Origin: Palaeococcus ferrophilus DSM 13482
GTDB taxonomy: Archaea > Methanobacteriota_B > Thermococci > Thermococcales > Thermococcaceae
Direction of reading: 5' to 3'
Assembly: GCF_000966265.1 (NCBI RefSeq)
Contig: NZ_LANF01000009.1
Span: 62,001-126,000, forward strand
Length of the DNA stretch: 64,000 nucleotides
Positions 45,453-53,680 of the stretch are shown piece after piece; the stretch's first letter is position 1, and each line of letters opens with the position of its first letter. A model generated the notes under the pieces. It saw nothing but the letters and a program-made list of their open reading frames with translations. It ran no database searches and was not told the origin of the DNA. The translations under genes and the position numbers were made by a program.

Positions 45453-45626
45453 ATGGGAAGCGGAACGGCACCGATGGGACAGAGAAACAAGAAGGAGACT
45501 CACATAAGGTGCAGGCGCTGCGGTAGGAAAGCTTTCAACAGGAGAAAGGGCTACTGTGCTGCCTGCGGCTTCGGAAGGAGCAGCAGGATGAGGAAGTACA
45601 GCTGGTCGAGAAAGCACCGCAAGTGA
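45453..45626 (+). CDS. rpl37e: 50S ribosomal protein L37e
   Basis: The 57-residue basic protein [14 protein letters not shown]...[12 protein letters not shown]...[13 protein letters not shown] has the CxxC...CxxC zinc ribbon and lysine-rich tail (SWSRKHRK) of archaeal L37e. AGGTGAAGGCTC precedes the ATG; it is the second gene of the lsm operon. Confidence 0.95.
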
Positions 45627-45699
45627 TTCCTTTTTGTTTCTCCTTTTCTAAACTCCCTTTAGGACATTCTTATCGGCCCACCGTAAACTTTGCTAACCA

Positions 45700-45760
45700 C
45701 TAAAACTTAACGGTAGGTCACTTATCGTTAACTTCACGGACTTTACGGTACTTAACGGTA
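45700..45760. repeat. Direct repeat copy 1 (3' end of AlbA_2-type gene), iterated 11-bp motif
   Basis: This 61-bp copy matches 47071-47132 with about four substitutions and one indel; the last 35 bases are identical. It contains ACTTAACGGTA at 45705-45715, an inverted AGTTAACGATA at 45723-45733, ACTTTACGGTA at 45740-45750 and ACTTAACGGTA at 45750-45760. The stop codon of the AlbA_2-type gene lies inside it. Confidence 0.85.
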
Positions 45761-47046
45761 GATGGCAACGTATCTCCTCTGGGCTCCCCTCCCGATTGGA
45801 CGTACAAGCCCCATTGCTTCGAGCTTTTCGAGCCGTTTTAAGACCGCGGGTTTTGAAAGCTTCACGTAGCTTGAGATTTCACTGCTCCTCCTGGGATTGA
45901 TCAGATACTCGAGAATCTTTCTGTCCGTATCATCGAGGAGCTCCTCCACCTTCCTTTTGAATATGACCTCGAACCTGTTGGCCGAGCTCTTAAACTCCAC
46001 ATCCACAAGCCCGTGTTTCCGGCATTCTTCCCGTATCATCCTAAGACCGTAGCCGTATTTCTCGATATATCCTGAATCGTAGAGGAGAGAGCACAGGGCA
46101 GGGTTTCTCGGTACGTGCTCCGGATCCTCCAGATCAACACCTGGCATTAGTCCTCCTGGATTTCTTATCACGAGCATGTGGGGATGGATGAACACCCTGA
46201 CGTCCGATGGGATGGTGTAGTTGCGGTGCGCGAATGCATTTATGAGGGCTTCACGAACCGCTCGCGGTGGATACTCCATTATCTCTACCCGTTTCGTCCC
46301 CACAATCACCTCAAATGCACGGAATTCCCGTACAAGTTCGCCGAACATGTCATCTATAACCTTCCAGACGGGCCCATAAAACTCCCGGCTCTTAACCGGC
46401 TCGCCATCACGTATCCATATAATCCTCCCGCCGGAGTGGGGAATAATGGCTTGGGCATCCGAAAAAAACAGCACCCCTGCGTTTGTAAGCCTGCCCTCTT
46501 TTACAGCTTTTCTGCTCCTAAGATAACGCATCCACTCGTCTTTGGGGATATTCCTGCCTCTGGAGGTTTTTATTGCAGAAAAAAACCATTCCACATACTC
46601 GTTTTTTAAAGCATCCATTCCCGCCACAGGGAACTCATCCCATGTAACGGTCCCAAGTTCCGAGGACAGCATGAGTATCTCCTGGATTGAGAGGGGCCTG
46701 ATGCCGAGCCTATGCGAATATAAGCGACTCCCCCTATGGAGCATAACGTCCTGGATTTGGGAACCTTGATTACTAGAATCTCCTTTTCTCCCAACTCAAC
46801 CACGTGCATTGAAACCGCTATGGGGGGTGTTATGCCCTGGAGGCTGGAAGTCACAACTTCCTTTGAGCGCTTAACATCACATCCTACAATCTCGCCACTA
46901 TCCGCAACCCCCACGAGGATGTAGCCGCCCTCTGCGTTTGCTAAGCCGCATATCTCCCTTGCGATATCCCGATTGACGCTCTTCTTGAATTCTATCCTCT
47001 CGTTTTCCCCAGCTTTTATGAGGGCTACAACTTCACTCGCGTCCAT
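45752..47046 (-). pseudogene. AlbA_2/Schlafen-type ATP-binding and winged-helix protein, frameshifted
   Basis: Two overlapping frames together encode one protein. The first (47046 down to about 46702) gives an N-terminal AlbA_2 domain: ENERIEFKKSVNRDIAREICGLANAEGGYILVGVADSGEIVG, ending GGVAYIRIGSA. The second (from about 46702 to 45752) continues IRPLSIQEILMLSSELGTVTWDEFPV with an ATPase-like C-terminal domain (PPRAVREALINAFAHRNY, NPGGLMPGV, KYGYGLRMI) and a winged helix (RSSEISSYVKLSKPAVLKRLEKLEAMGLV). The total span of 1295 bases is one short of a multiple of three, so a single-base deletion near 46700-46710 explains it. Alternatives are a sequencing error or -1 frameshifting; no slippery heptamer is seen. 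The start has no ribosome site, so the transcript is probably leaderless. Confidence 0.82.
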
Positions 47047-47049
47047 GTT

Positions 47050-47132
47050 TATCGTTAAGTACTGTTAACCCTAAAAACTTAACGGTGAGTCACATACCGT
47101 TAACTTCACGGACTTTACGGTACTTAACGGTA
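47050..47132. promoter_or_regulatory. Operator array over the AlbA_2-type gene promoter; contains direct repeat copy 2
   Basis: Seven copies of a motif close to ACTTAACGGTA lie in 83 bases: inverted at 47050-47060, 47060-47070 and 47095-47105, direct at 47077-47087, 47103-47113 (weak), 47112-47122 and 47122-47132. Several are spaced by about one helical turn. They cover the CTAAAAAC TATA-like region and the probable transcription start of the minus-strand gene starting at 47046. The 47071-47132 part is the second copy of the repeat at 45700-45760. Binding by the gene's own winged helix is the natural guess. Confidence 0.75.
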
Positions 47133-47147
47133 AATAGAGAAGAGGCA

Positions 47148-48221
47148 TTAGAGTTCGTTTCTGAACTTCCCGAGTTCCTTCTCCATCCTGTTTCTGGCGT
47201 ACTCTTCCATGAGGGGTTTTACGAGCTCCACAACGCGCTCCTTCAGCTTATCGAGGCCATCGCCGTTGAGTGCGGAAATCCTGATGGGTTCGAGGCCCTT
47301 CTCCCTCACGAACGCCTCCACCTTCTTCATTTTCTCCTCTTCTGCTATGTCCGCCTTGTTGAGCACCACTATGAAGGGAAACTCGCCGAACTCGCGGTGA
47401 ATCTCCTCAAAGAGGTGGGTCTGCTCCTCTATGGGGTAGCCGCAGTACTCGCTCGGGTCGAAGATGTATATGATGAGCCTCCCGAGGTGCTTTAAAGCGA
47501 GAATCGCCTGCCTTTCTATCTCGTTGCGTTCGCTCAGGGGCCTGTCGAGGAGGCCGGGCGTGTCTATCACCTGGTACTTAAGCCAGTGTTCCTCGAACTG
47601 GCCGACGTTTATACCCCTCGTCGTGAAGGGATAGCTCGCGACCTCGGGCTTGGCGTTCGTGAGGGCCTTGAGGAGGGTGGATTTGCCAACGTTCGGGTGC
47701 CCCGCTATGACCACCGTGGGCAGCTCAAGGTCTATAACGGGTATCTCCTTGAGCACGTCCCTCGCGCGGTTGAGGTACTCAAGCCTGTCCCCGATGTCCT
47801 TGACGACGCTCGAGGCTCTCCCGTAGAACTCGCGTCTCAGGCGGGCTATCTCATCCGGATCGCGGGAGTAGCGTAGCCTTTCAACGTAGCGCTCTTCAAG
47901 TCGCCTTATCGTCCTTATGGCCCAGTCAAGGCCGGCGAGGGCCTTGTGGAACTGATCCCTGTCCACGAGCGTATCGAGGAGCTCCCTGTAGAATGGGGGA
48001 AGCGTTGAAACACCGGGGGTCCTGTCGAGGACCTTCCGGAGGTTGTCCCGCACAACGTTGGAGAAAGTTCTTATCCTCACTTCCTCACGCTCTCTCGCCT
48101 TGTGAACGGGCTTTCCCCTGGGTGTGATTGACGATGCCGCCCTCTCGGCCCTCCTGAAGGCCTTGTCAAGTATCTCATCGGGTAAGAGTATAGTGGGCAT
48201 TTTTTCAAATGGATTCTTCAT
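47148..48221 (-). CDS. nog1: Nog1-like GTPase
   Basis: The 357-residue product has an N-terminal helical NOG1 domain and then a G domain with G1 AGHPNVGKSTLL, G2/G3 YPFTTRGINVGQF and DTPGLLDRPLSERNEIERQAI, and G4 NKAD. Archaeal Nog1 is linked to assembly of the large ribosomal subunit. The start at 48221 (MKNPFEKMPT) follows GAGGTGAGTGAG; the open frame continues upstream but over a divergent promoter. Confidence 0.92.
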   Translation of the reverse strand: MKNPFEKMPTILLPDEILDKAFRRAERAASSITPRGKPVHKAREREEVRIRTFSNVVRDNLRKVLDRTPGVSTLPPFYRELLDTLVDRDQFHKALAGLDWAIRTIRRLEERYVERLRYSRDPDEIARLRREFYGRASSVVKDIGDRLEYLNRARDVLKEIPVIDLELPTVVIAGHPNVGKSTLLKALTNAKPEVASYPFTTRGINVGQFEEHWLKYQVIDTPGLLDRPLSERNEIERQAILALKHLGRLIIYIFDPSEYCGYPIEEQTHLFEEIHREFGEFPFIVVLNKADIAEEEKMKKVEAFVREKGLEPIRISALNGDGLDKLKERVVELVKPLMEEYARNRMEKELGKFRNEL

Positions 48222-49963: not shown

Positions 49964-52900
49964 ATGCACGTGACAGTTCGAGTTGCGTGGCATGATAACA
50001 AATGGAATGGAAAAATATGTAAAAAACCTAAAGAAAACATCTATTGTATTGATAACTACTCTCTTCTGGCTTCTAGAATCCAAAGACGTAGGAAGGTGGA
50101 CATAGAGCAAGAAACTGCAGGAAAGGATATCTGTGAAGTTTGGAAAAATATTAGTTATGCACCTCCATGTTACTGGTGCATAAACTTAAATGGGGACGCT
50201 AATTGTACTGTTAAGGACTCACACCCATTTTCCGACAGAAACCCTAAATTCAGAGAAAAAGTTCCGCCGATAGATGCAGTATTACACCCCAATTCTGTTT
50301 ACACTTGGAATTTTAAACTGTCATTCGACGAAAAAAAGGACAAATACAGATACCCTCCAGATCTAGAAGAAAGAGTAAGAGAATACATAAATAAAACCAA
50401 ACCTGGAAGTTCTATCGTATTTTTCTATGCTAACCATGGGAACCCCGTTAATGGTGACGAAAGAAAGTACTTACTAGTAGGAGCAGCACTAGTAAAGAAC
50501 ATTGAGTATCCCTCGGAATACGAAATGCCACCTGAGCTCATTGAAGAGAAAAACAAAAAGTGGCAGACTAGATACTTCCCAAAAATTGCCTGGCAGTTCA
50601 GGATTGATATTGACCCAGAAACAATAGTCTTATTGCCATACCATGAATACTTGGATCTCGGAATCCCGGAAGAAGAAAAAGAAAATCTCCTAAAAGAGAT
50701 CACTGTAAGTATTAAAGATCCCACATTAATTCCCCATTTTAAATATGTATCGATGCACATCCCTTCTGATAAGACTATTTATCTACTTTACGAGATTAAG
50801 CGTAAACTTGATATTGTGGAGCAACATGGCATCATTGATTTCGAGGAAGTACAAGTATTAAAGAAACGAATAATTCGTCTTCTTAAAATAGCTTGGGACT
50901 CTCGCGGGAAGTATCCAGGTTTCCGGAATCTTATGGAAGTGCTCATCAGTGATGAATTAAAGAATGCCTCTGAAACAGTCGACGAGTTCTATTCTTTAAT
51001 ACTTCAGAAATTTGGTAGTGTTGAAGAGTTCCTGGCGAACCCTGATAACATAAAGGTGTTGGAGTCAGAAAATCTGAGCCCGGGCCTTAAGAGAATAATC
51101 CCATATTTACGAGATGAATATTCGACTATCGAGTTTCTATCCAGATTTGACTTATCAAAACCCCAATTTCAGAAGATTCTAGGAAGAGTAAATCGGTATC
51201 GCGAGAATCCTTACACGATTCTTGAGGAGTATCTGTACGAACTTCAGGACAACAACTGGCGCATTGAAGATAATGATTACGGAATTTCCCTTTACCAGAT
51301 AGACATACCCATGTTCCCAGACCCGGAATTTGTCAGCTGGGAACCGCCTATGATAATTCGTGCTACCTCGATAGAGCGTGTTTCGGCATTAATAACGACA
51401 ATACTAAAGGAAAGCGCTACGATCGAGGGCAATTCAGCTCTCCCAAGAGAGACGGTCATGGAAAGGATCAAGAGTTATCCCCTTTACTACATAGACAAGG
51501 AGTTGAACATAAATGAGAATCTACTTGATGAGTATGAGAACAGACCTGAATTTAGAAGCAGATTCATATTCTACACAATAAACGGCAGAAAGCTGTATCA
51601 ACTAATGGACTTAAGAAAAATTGAGGAGCATATTGAGAAATTCGTTAACACATTGATCTCAAAGACGTATTCAGTTCCCGATGCTATCGTAGAAGAGTTA
51701 GTCGAACGGGATATTCAAAAGTTTGACGATCGGCTAAATTATTATTCTCAAATTACATTCTCTAAGGAGAGACAGAAACTCTACAACTCAGTGCTTAAAA
51801 ATGGATTTTCAGTAATTCTCGGTAGTGCTGGAAGTGGGAAAACTGCTGCTGTTGTTAACTTGGTAAAGTATTTCACTGACAAGCGAAAACCGATACTGAT
51901 AGTAACTCCTACCGGAAAAGCTAGCCTAGTAATCAGAGACCGGCTTAAAAAAGAGGGGATAAACCCTGAAAGTTCTCGCATTTTGGTTTCAACAATACAC
52001 AGGTACCTCTATCAGTTCCCACGTGATCTTTCGAGCTACATACCCAAGATTCTCGACGGAAATTACAATCTTTTCCACGTGTTTATTAGCGGTGTTCAAA
52101 GTACACGCTCCAAGCCAATAACTCCAAAAATCATAATAATCGATGAGGCCTCAATGGTCGATGAAGTACTTCTTGCGTTATTGTTTGCAACCATAAACCC
52201 GCAGGTAGTGGAACGTGTTATTCTTGTTGGAGATGATAAGCAATTGCCCCCAATTGGAGTTGGTAGACCCCTAGTGGATATCGTGAACTACTTAAAGGCA
52301 AAAAATTTGGAGGAAAATTATGTTGAACTTCAGACTAACTTGAGATTCTCAACTGCAAATCAAGGTTCCTCCAGGATTGAAAAGTTAGCTGCATTGTTCA
52401 GAGAAGACAAAATGATATCCTTTGAGGATTTAGATGATGTCTTCCAGACCGGGGATGAAACATTAGAAATCGTCTACTTCGACTCCTATGAGGACTTAAT
52501 AAGAAAGCTAAAAGAAATATTGACCAAGCTCACATCTGTTGATGTTACAGAAGAAACAAGTGTTAGTGAATTGTTTGTTGAGCTATTTGAACCGGGGGGA
52601 ACTTTTGACTACTCTTACTTAGACCGACTTCAGATATTGGCTCCTCGTAGGGTAGGTAGATTTGGAACATTGGGCATCAACTACCAGATTGCCGGAGATG
52701 TTCTAAGTACCGGGGCATTTAAACCTGGAACAAAAATAATCTGTGAGGAAAACCAATATTGGAACATTGGTGATCTGAGGGTTCTAGCATTAGCTAATGG
52801 GTCAATAGGGTACATTCCAAAAAAAGACCACAGGCAAATGAAAAATGGCCAGCCAAATCCAAAGTTTTATGACATTGACGAGCTCTACAAACTTGTCACA

Positions 52901-53680
52901 ATCATTACAAACAAAACACAATCTCCCAAAAAGAGAAAATGGTACGGGGACAGTTACTGGCGGGGTGTGAGGTCTCTTAAGAGAAGGTTGGTGATCCCAG
53001 GGTTTAGGGATAGCATAGAGGGATTCTCGCCCGCATATGCCATTACAGTCCACAAAGCCCAGGGAAGCGATTTTGATAATGTAATCTTGGTACTCTCAGA
53101 ACGTTCCAATTACATTACAAAGGAGCTTATCTACACTGGACTCACTAGAGCAAAGAAAAAGCTCTATCTATTTATCCACGAGAGCCTCAAGGATAATTTT
53201 TATGAGTTCTTAATCTCGGCTCACAAGAACTCCGCGATAGATAACATAACAACCCTCCTATTTGAGTACAGGCCCTCAGCTTCAAAGCCCTACAAGGTGA
53301 CACGTAAAGATGGCAAAACTTTGTATGTCAGGTCAAAAATTGAAATGATAATAGCAAAAACGTTGGACAATCTTGGCGTAGAATTTGAATATGAACCTAA
53401 AGATTTTAGCAGACAGTATTTGCTGCCCGACTTTAAGATAATCTACAATGAACAGGAATATTACTGGGAGCACCTAGGAATGATAGATAACATGGAATAT
53501 CGGAGTAGATGGTTTAGAAAATTCAAGAAATACAAGGAGATGGGAGTAGCAGATCACTTAATAACGACAGAGGAGTCTGAGCATGATATTGAAAACAACG
53601 TGAGAAAGATTATTGAGGACATAAAAGGAGGTAGACTCAAAGGGCGTCAAAGTTACTCATACCATCATTACTTCCTCTGA
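49964..53680 (+). CDS. RecD2-like SF1B helicase with Cys-rich N-terminus and C-terminal PD-(D/E)XK-like nuclease
   Basis: The 1238-residue product has three regions. Residues 1-90 hold six cysteines (19, 28, 57, 69, 72, 81; the last three in PPCYWC and NC), a possible zinc or iron-sulfur site. Residues 90-600 show no motif I recognise. The helicase has Walker A GSAGSGKTA at 620-627, IIIIDEASMVD with Asp727, VGDDKQLPPIGVGRP, VHKAQGSDFDNVILVL around 1030 and YTGLTRAKKKLYLF around 1058; this is the RecD/RecD2 pattern. The C-terminus (about 1115-1210) has RSKIEMIIAKTL (Glu1127), LPDFKI (Asp1156) and YYWEHLG (Glu1169), resembling a PD-(D/E)XK nuclease. One hand-counted line (50461-50520) has 23 G+C of 60, against 40 of 60 at 55321-55380. 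It is a likely acquired anti-invader or DNA-processing enzyme; family unnamed. Confidence 0.85.
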   Translation: MHVTVRVAWHDNKWNGKICKKPKENIYCIDNYSLLASRIQRRRKVDIEQETAGKDICEVWKNISYAPPCYWCINLNGDANCTVKDSHPFSDRNPKFREKVPPIDAVLHPNSVYTWNFKLSFDEKKDKYRYPPDLEERVREYINKTKPGSSIVFFYANHGNPVNGDERKYLLVGAALVKNIEYPSEYEMPPELIEEKNKKWQTRYFPKIAWQFRIDIDPETIVLLPYHEYLDLGIPEEEKENLLKEITVSIKDPTLIPHFKYVSMHIPSDKTIYLLYEIKRKLDIVEQHGIIDFEEVQVLKKRIIRLLKIAWDSRGKYPGFRNLMEVLISDELKNASETVDEFYSLILQKFGSVEEFLANPDNIKVLESENLSPGLKRIIPYLRDEYSTIEFLSRFDLSKPQFQKILGRVNRYRENPYTILEEYLYELQDNNWRIEDNDYGISLYQIDIPMFPDPEFVSWEPPMIIRATSIERVSALITTILKESATIEGNSALPRETVMERIKSYPLYYIDKELNINENLLDEYENRPEFRSRFIFYTINGRKLYQLMDLRKIEEHIEKFVNTLISKTYSVPDAIVEELVERDIQKFDDRLNYYSQITFSKERQKLYNSVLKNGFSVILGSAGSGKTAAVVNLVKYFTDKRKPILIVTPTGKASLVIRDRLKKEGINPESSRILVSTIHRYLYQFPRDLSSYIPKILDGNYNLFHVFISGVQSTRSKPITPKIIIIDEASMVDEVLLALLFATINPQVVERVILVGDDKQLPPIGVGRPLVDIVNYLKAKNLEENYVELQTNLRFSTANQGSSRIEKLAALFREDKMISFEDLDDVFQTGDETLEIVYFDSYEDLIRKLKEILTKLTSVDVTEETSVSELFVELFEPGGTFDYSYLDRLQILAPRRVGRFGTLGINYQIAGDVLSTGAFKPGTKIICEENQYWNIGDLRVLALANGSIGYIPKKDHRQMKNGQPNPKFYDIDELYKLVTIITNKTQSPKKRKWYGDSYWRGVRSLKRRLVIPGFRDSIEGFSPAYAITVHKAQGSDFDNVILVLSERSNYITKELIYTGLTRAKKKLYLFIHESLKDNFYEFLISAHKNSAIDNITTLLFEYRPSASKPYKVTRKDGKTLYVRSKIEMIIAKTLDNLGVEFEYEPKDFSRQYLLPDFKIIYNEQEYYWEHLGMIDNMEYRSRWFRKFKKYKEMGVADHLITTEESEHDIENNVRKIIEDIKGGRLKGRQSYSYHHYFL

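Follow-up and report, generated by a model that had tools for sequence, protein, structure and literature searches.

The AlbA_2-type gene in a 64,000-nt stretch of the Palaeococcus ferrophilus DSM 13482 genome (contig NZ_LANF01000009.1, positions 62,001 to 126,000; hereafter the window) lies between two same-direction copies of a dyad-symmetric array of half-sites, one directly upstream of its start codon and the other over its stop codon. On balance, and by a narrow measure, we consider it probable that this is a self-targeted, autoregulated AlbA_2–GHKL–winged-helix gene, forming a bracketed cassette that is spread horizontally and lost by recombination between its arms. The original prediction that the gene is framed at both ends by its own probable sites is a conserved picture, seen in 13 of 13 orthologues at the same chromosomal site; the sites themselves are predicted.

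According to the preferred reading, the AlbA_2/GHKL-like/winged-helix protein would most likely bind the six-half-site array as a dimer or tetramer. Since the 5′ array probably covers the whole core promoter, binding there would repress or tune the gene's own transcription, and the second array, over the stop codon, would bracket the gene. The two arms of the units are 73–97% alike and have the same orientation, so recombination between them would delete the gene cleanly and leave one array; recombination through arms and flanks could also restore the unit or swap it, so that gene and species histories would no longer match. The sequences themselves show the arrays and where they lie, the solo sites, the exchange of alleles, the purifying selection and the near-confinement of the dyads to the arrays; binding by the protein, repression of its own gene, the route of recombination and the direction in which the units changed are what we infer. 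Autoregulation through the 5′ array, together with passive arm recombination, is the best-supported mechanism, and ordinary recombination, whether between arms or flanks, accounts for clean loss as well as horizontal exchange.

Organisation of the Arrays

The direct repeats that bracket the gene, located at 45691–45763 and 47063–47135, are 73 nt long, 88% identical and spaced by 1372 nt; a BLAST search with the 73-nt sequence found no further copy in the 2.2 Mb genome. They had been described as repeats of about 61 bp sharing a run of 35 identical bases, and the longer repeats contain that run. A profile of the array built from 35 relatives (model R1) places both window arrays on the minus strand, which is the gene's strand, with conserved limits (47049–47130 for the 5′ array, whose outer end is otherwise put at 47131, and 45679–45758 for the 3′ array) slightly beyond the ends of the original description. 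The same profile search detected a third, weaker array in this genome, outside the window (G000:C11:52558–52626).

The array is 72–84 bp long and has six CGTWAA half-sites, arranged F F R F R R. This order is identical when read from either strand, and R1 matches most arrays on both strands. The half-site spacing is 10-16-10-16-10 in the 74-nt form, 9-16-10-16-9 in type C arrays (the types are given below) and about 10-16-19-16-10, with a central 19, in the longer form of the window and of G029, G031 and G041; array length varies at the centre by ~9 nt, near one helical turn. The two inner half-site pairs constitute 22-bp dyads, CGTWAA-N10-TTWACG. An iterated 11-bp motif had been proposed as the unit, but the unit is a 6-bp half-site, six per array, and the spacings of 10 and 16 rule out a uniform 11-bp iteration. 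The proposed phasing near one helical turn holds for neighbouring half-sites only and does not extend uniformly along the array. With up to two mismatches allowed, ACTTAACGGTA has 20 matches in the window versus 9.07 expected, a number reached by 1 of 100 shuffles; ten of them fall inside the two repeat copies.

The 5′ array possesses all six half-sites (47124–47129, 47114–47119, 47098–47103, 47079–47084, 47063–47068 and 47053–47058, minus strand). It ends 2 nt before the ATG and includes a TATA-like stretch, TTTTTAGGG, at 47071–47079 (minus strand), with a putative promoter role, in keeping with the predicted location of this copy over the promoter. No obvious ribosome-binding site precedes the gene's ATG. 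The proximity to the ATG, this lack and the TATA-like stretch are why the 5′ array is read as an operator/promoter array that would cover the core promoter of a leaderless transcript. The 3′ array retains five half-sites (45752–45757, 45742–45747, 45726–45731, 45707–45712 and 45682–45687), the fifth of the six being degraded. The stop codon (45752–45754) is inside its first half-site, so this copy does lie over the 3′ end of the gene, as had been noticed. No known RNA family was found in the region at gathering thresholds.

The AlbA_2 Gene and Its Neighbours

The gene is encoded on the minus strand, immediately 3′ of a NOG1-type GTPase gene (47148–48221, minus strand; PF17835/PF06858), which is the upstream neighbour of the unit in 13 genomes. 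The convergent downstream neighbour is an open reading frame recognised as an rpL37e-like gene (45453–45626, plus strand); in Thermococcus-type genomes its place is held by what we take, from its look, to be an rpL35ae-like gene. Elsewhere in the window, a large helicase-like protein (49964–53680) has a full-length match to the candidate defence family PDC-S68 (1311 bits).

The N-terminal part of the gene (46606–47046, minus strand) encodes a Schlafen AlbA_2 domain containing the sequence ENERIEFK (PF04326, E = 6e-22; 78.8 bits, above the curated cut-off of 25.3). The C-terminal part, in a second frame (45752–46744, minus strand), encodes a GHKL-like HATPase_c_4 domain (PF13749, E = 2e-16; 60.3 bits) and a winged helix (PF13412; HTH_24, 28.9 bits). 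The window gene is frameshifted between these parts. Among its relatives, G055 is also frameshifted and G022 is without the usual ATG, the remaining ones being open over their full length; the frameshifts in the window and in G055, both in multi-contig assemblies, could be sequencing errors. Values of dN/dS of 0.04–0.20 in the 12 close pairs with a usable estimate indicate that the protein is under purifying selection. The same domain order, Schlafen AlbA_2 (PF04326), HATPase_c_4 (PF13749) and HTH, is found in COG2865-type predicted regulators. The protein has sequence and fold matches to a solved relative of this type, 3LMM (DIP2311), and to SLFN N-domains; the AlphaFold model is weak (pLDDT 65, pTM 0.42), and the fold matches therefore support domains only.

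Distribution in Thermococcales

The search with R1 covered 94 Thermococcales genomes, one per species, and detected the array in 42 of them, none of which has it at more than three places. Its occurrence follows that of the gene family: it is present directly upstream of the start codon in all 22 close orthologues found in the 94 genomes. A second array of the same direction, with the stop codon in its first half-site, accompanies every one of the 13 orthologues located 3′ of NOG1. The other nine, at other loci, have the upstream array and no full 3′ array (G039 has a downstream fragment), so the gene can persist unbracketed.

The dyad CGTWAA-N10-TTWACG occurs three times in the genome of the window, always inside arrays, and only four times in G033, all within its two arrays; the core dyad is rare elsewhere in the family. 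This genome-wide count rules out a global regulator with many operators. Carriage of close relatives by plasmids or viruses was also considered and dropped, the best plasmid matches having only about 28–34% identity and the viral-contig matches 22–28%.

Exchange between Species

The alleles of the gene at the NOG1 site are deeply split into types A, B, C and that of G000, in conflict with the markers. G022 and G047 are 90% identical in markers and 70% in the gene; the opposite is seen for G047 and G050 (gene 85%, markers 80%) and for G029 and G031 (gene 95.7%, markers 87.8%). The discordant block comprises array, gene and array, whereas the sequences on either side of it, a NOG1 tail and a ribosomal-protein gene, are mutually concordant, and both arrays of a unit share type-specific features such as the long centre. 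Such blocks indicate that units move between species, at least by recombination through the flanks.

Solo Arrays and Probable Loss of the Gene

Strains with a single repeat and no gene had been envisaged, and 13 genomes have one array without the gene at the NOG1 site; in a fourteenth, G066, the site runs off the contig. The repeat occurring without the gene had also been put forward as evidence against their association. Solo arrays do occur, but at the gene's own site and often nested among gene-bearing relatives, and they are thus taken for scars or empty sites and not for counter-evidence. The close orthologue is absent from the solo-array genomes except G039, which has a divergent copy elsewhere. 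The array of G053 is truncated and adjoins an ATPase gene. The solo array of G054 is bordered on its left by sequence matching that beside the 5′ array in its relative G013, and on its right by sequence matching that beside the 3′ array there, which is the arrangement that recombination of the arms should give. No gene remnant was detected at the NOG1 solo sites at E ≤ 0.01, whereas the single-array loci of G075 and G082 do retain remnants, and in G084 the locus is present twice, once lacking most of the gene.

On a marker tree of the rpL35ae-like gene and the NOG1 tail (about 570 nt, with some weak branches), several solo genomes are nested among bracketed ones, and the three presence states need 18 changes, not far from the 22 averaged over shuffles. 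Loss of the gene and its gain into a pre-existing solo array look alike at single-array sites. At a tRNA-adjacent locus (L174:5909–5987, L183:5073–5155), G003 has the array and the gene, and in G007 ~816 bp of other sequence stands in place of the gene after the array. A clean empty site for the off-NOG1 copy of G039 was discarded: the difference between its sister genomes extends over a larger block, ~3.4 kb close to tRNA genes, which blurs the boundaries.

An active mobile element would account for several of these observations. In such an element, the protein would recognise the arrays as ends, a Schlafen-type nuclease centre would start excision or insertion and the solo arrays would be targets. 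Solo arrays at several loci, the near-random phylogenetic distribution, an insertion point beside NOG1 that is the same in two genera and the direct repeats that likewise flank some distant paralogues are consistent with it. Against it, AlbA_2 domains commonly carry the ExxxxExK motif (here ENERIEFK). In its favour, this is the catalytic motif of SLFN nucleases (PMC12215978) and is invariant across five aligned homologues; a nearby aspartate varies. Mobility of this kind is nevertheless considered unlikely: the domain libraries searched revealed AlbA_2, HATPase_c_4 and HTH and no transposase or recombinase domain, no target-site duplication beyond the array itself was seen at single-array sites, and the exchanged blocks are explicable by recombination through the conserved NOG1 and ribosomal-protein flanks. 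A broader proposal, which seems to us decidedly improbable, is that the Thermococcales AlbA_2 genes are a new transposase-free selfish cassette, whose winged helix reads the end arrays and whose nuclease centre provokes recombination. The gene would then home into single arrays and leave single arrays when lost, and the distant paralogues with 3′ arrays and flanking repeats would follow the same principle with different sites.

What Each Copy of the Array Retains

A pattern test found the TATA-like stretch in 20 of the 22 upstream arrays but in 2 of the 13 downstream ones; among solo arrays, 4 of 12 have it. Half-sites in downstream arrays changed less than spacers, both in type A (1.9% versus 6.8%, p = 0.023) and in type C (3.7% versus 17.8%, p = 0.0015), the p-values being somewhat flattering because the half-sites had been chosen as the conserved part. 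This points to a 3′ array that would still be bound by the protein but no longer serves as a promoter. In types B and C, the 3′ copies are mostly as similar to each other as to their own 5′ copies, or more so, and a general, ongoing homogenisation of arms is unsupported given this likeness; the arms of G013 have a 70-nt identical pair.

All NOG1-site units have one common 3′ junction at the stop codon, so the 3′ copy probably formed once. This would suit a 3′ copy that is a functionless, neutral by-product of one ancient duplication or insertion; with half-sites conserved above spacers in the 3′ copies, a functionless copy of this kind appears very unlikely. The conserved half-sites beside a decaying promoter stretch would fit looping autoregulation: protein at both arrays would tie the promoter and terminator regions into a loop of ~1.37 kb, and the 3′ array would be kept for that. 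Also, where the central spacing of a unit differs, it does so in both copies, by 9 bp or close to a helical turn. As nine orthologues manage without a full 3′ array, looping is regarded as improbable.

In type C solo arrays, 6% of half-site positions are changed versus 30% in spacers, although these changes may predate gene loss and the half-sites were pre-chosen as conserved. Well-kept solo arrays in several gene-lacking genomes may reflect another user or recent losses. One such user could be the neighbouring genes: the array might act, independently of the AlbA_2 protein, as a roadblock or terminator between the convergent NOG1 and ribosomal-protein genes. Besides the persistence of solo arrays, this would be in line with solo arrays that lie over the 3′ end of an archaeal ATPase-like gene and include its stop codon (G000:C11:52558–52626, listed as L170:6059–6127, and in G031 and G068; the listed loci include L171:5934–6005 and L173:5226–5303). 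However, the array is missing from many relatives that have this convergent pair of genes, and it always adjoins the start of the gene, at varied loci; service to neighbours is therefore judged highly doubtful, and the self-targeted regulator remains the preferred reading.

Distant Relatives

Distant paralogues of about 30–35% identity are often located just upstream of a flippase-like gene. Among these AlbA_2 genes, a different iterated motif of ~10–11 bp covers the stop codon (L028, L029, L030, L031, L032, L178:3491–4870), and direct repeats that take in the start of the flippase gene lie on both sides of several of them. Upstream of some flippase genes the motif occurs with no intact paralogue near. 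Upstream of a Thermoplasmata homologue (42%; L056:2280–2385), iterated ATCGTAAC/AACGATA-like sites were identified by eye, along with a TTTATAA stretch. Judging by these site patterns, arrays at the end of the gene may be more widespread among such genes.

Relation to Known Systems and Significance

In the literature found, neither a DNA site nor a bracketing array is described for COG2865-type regulators, and the search found no mention of COG2865 together with Thermococcales. To our knowledge, the targets of prokaryotic AlbA_2/COG2865 proteins are largely unknown. Solo-LTR-like scars and MITE-like units are examples of transposase-free, repeat-flanked units. As in these, the present unit has direct repeats at both ends and a solo repeat left after apparent loss; in contrast, neither a recombinase domain, in the libraries searched, nor a target duplication beyond the array was seen, and its repeats are site arrays at a promoter. 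The AbiEi antitoxin (PMC7319586) resembles the present gene in having several inverted repeats or dyads over its own promoter; unlike AbiEi-type systems, the present gene is single, with no partner, and has a second array at the stop codon.

The array offers a precise candidate DNA site for one AlbA_2 subfamily, and this site is nearly private to its own gene. Natural before-and-after pairs, comprising the bracketed gene, a single array or nothing, are available across dozens of species. Should the protein drive this turnover, a part in gene mobility could be assigned to Schlafen-type nucleases.
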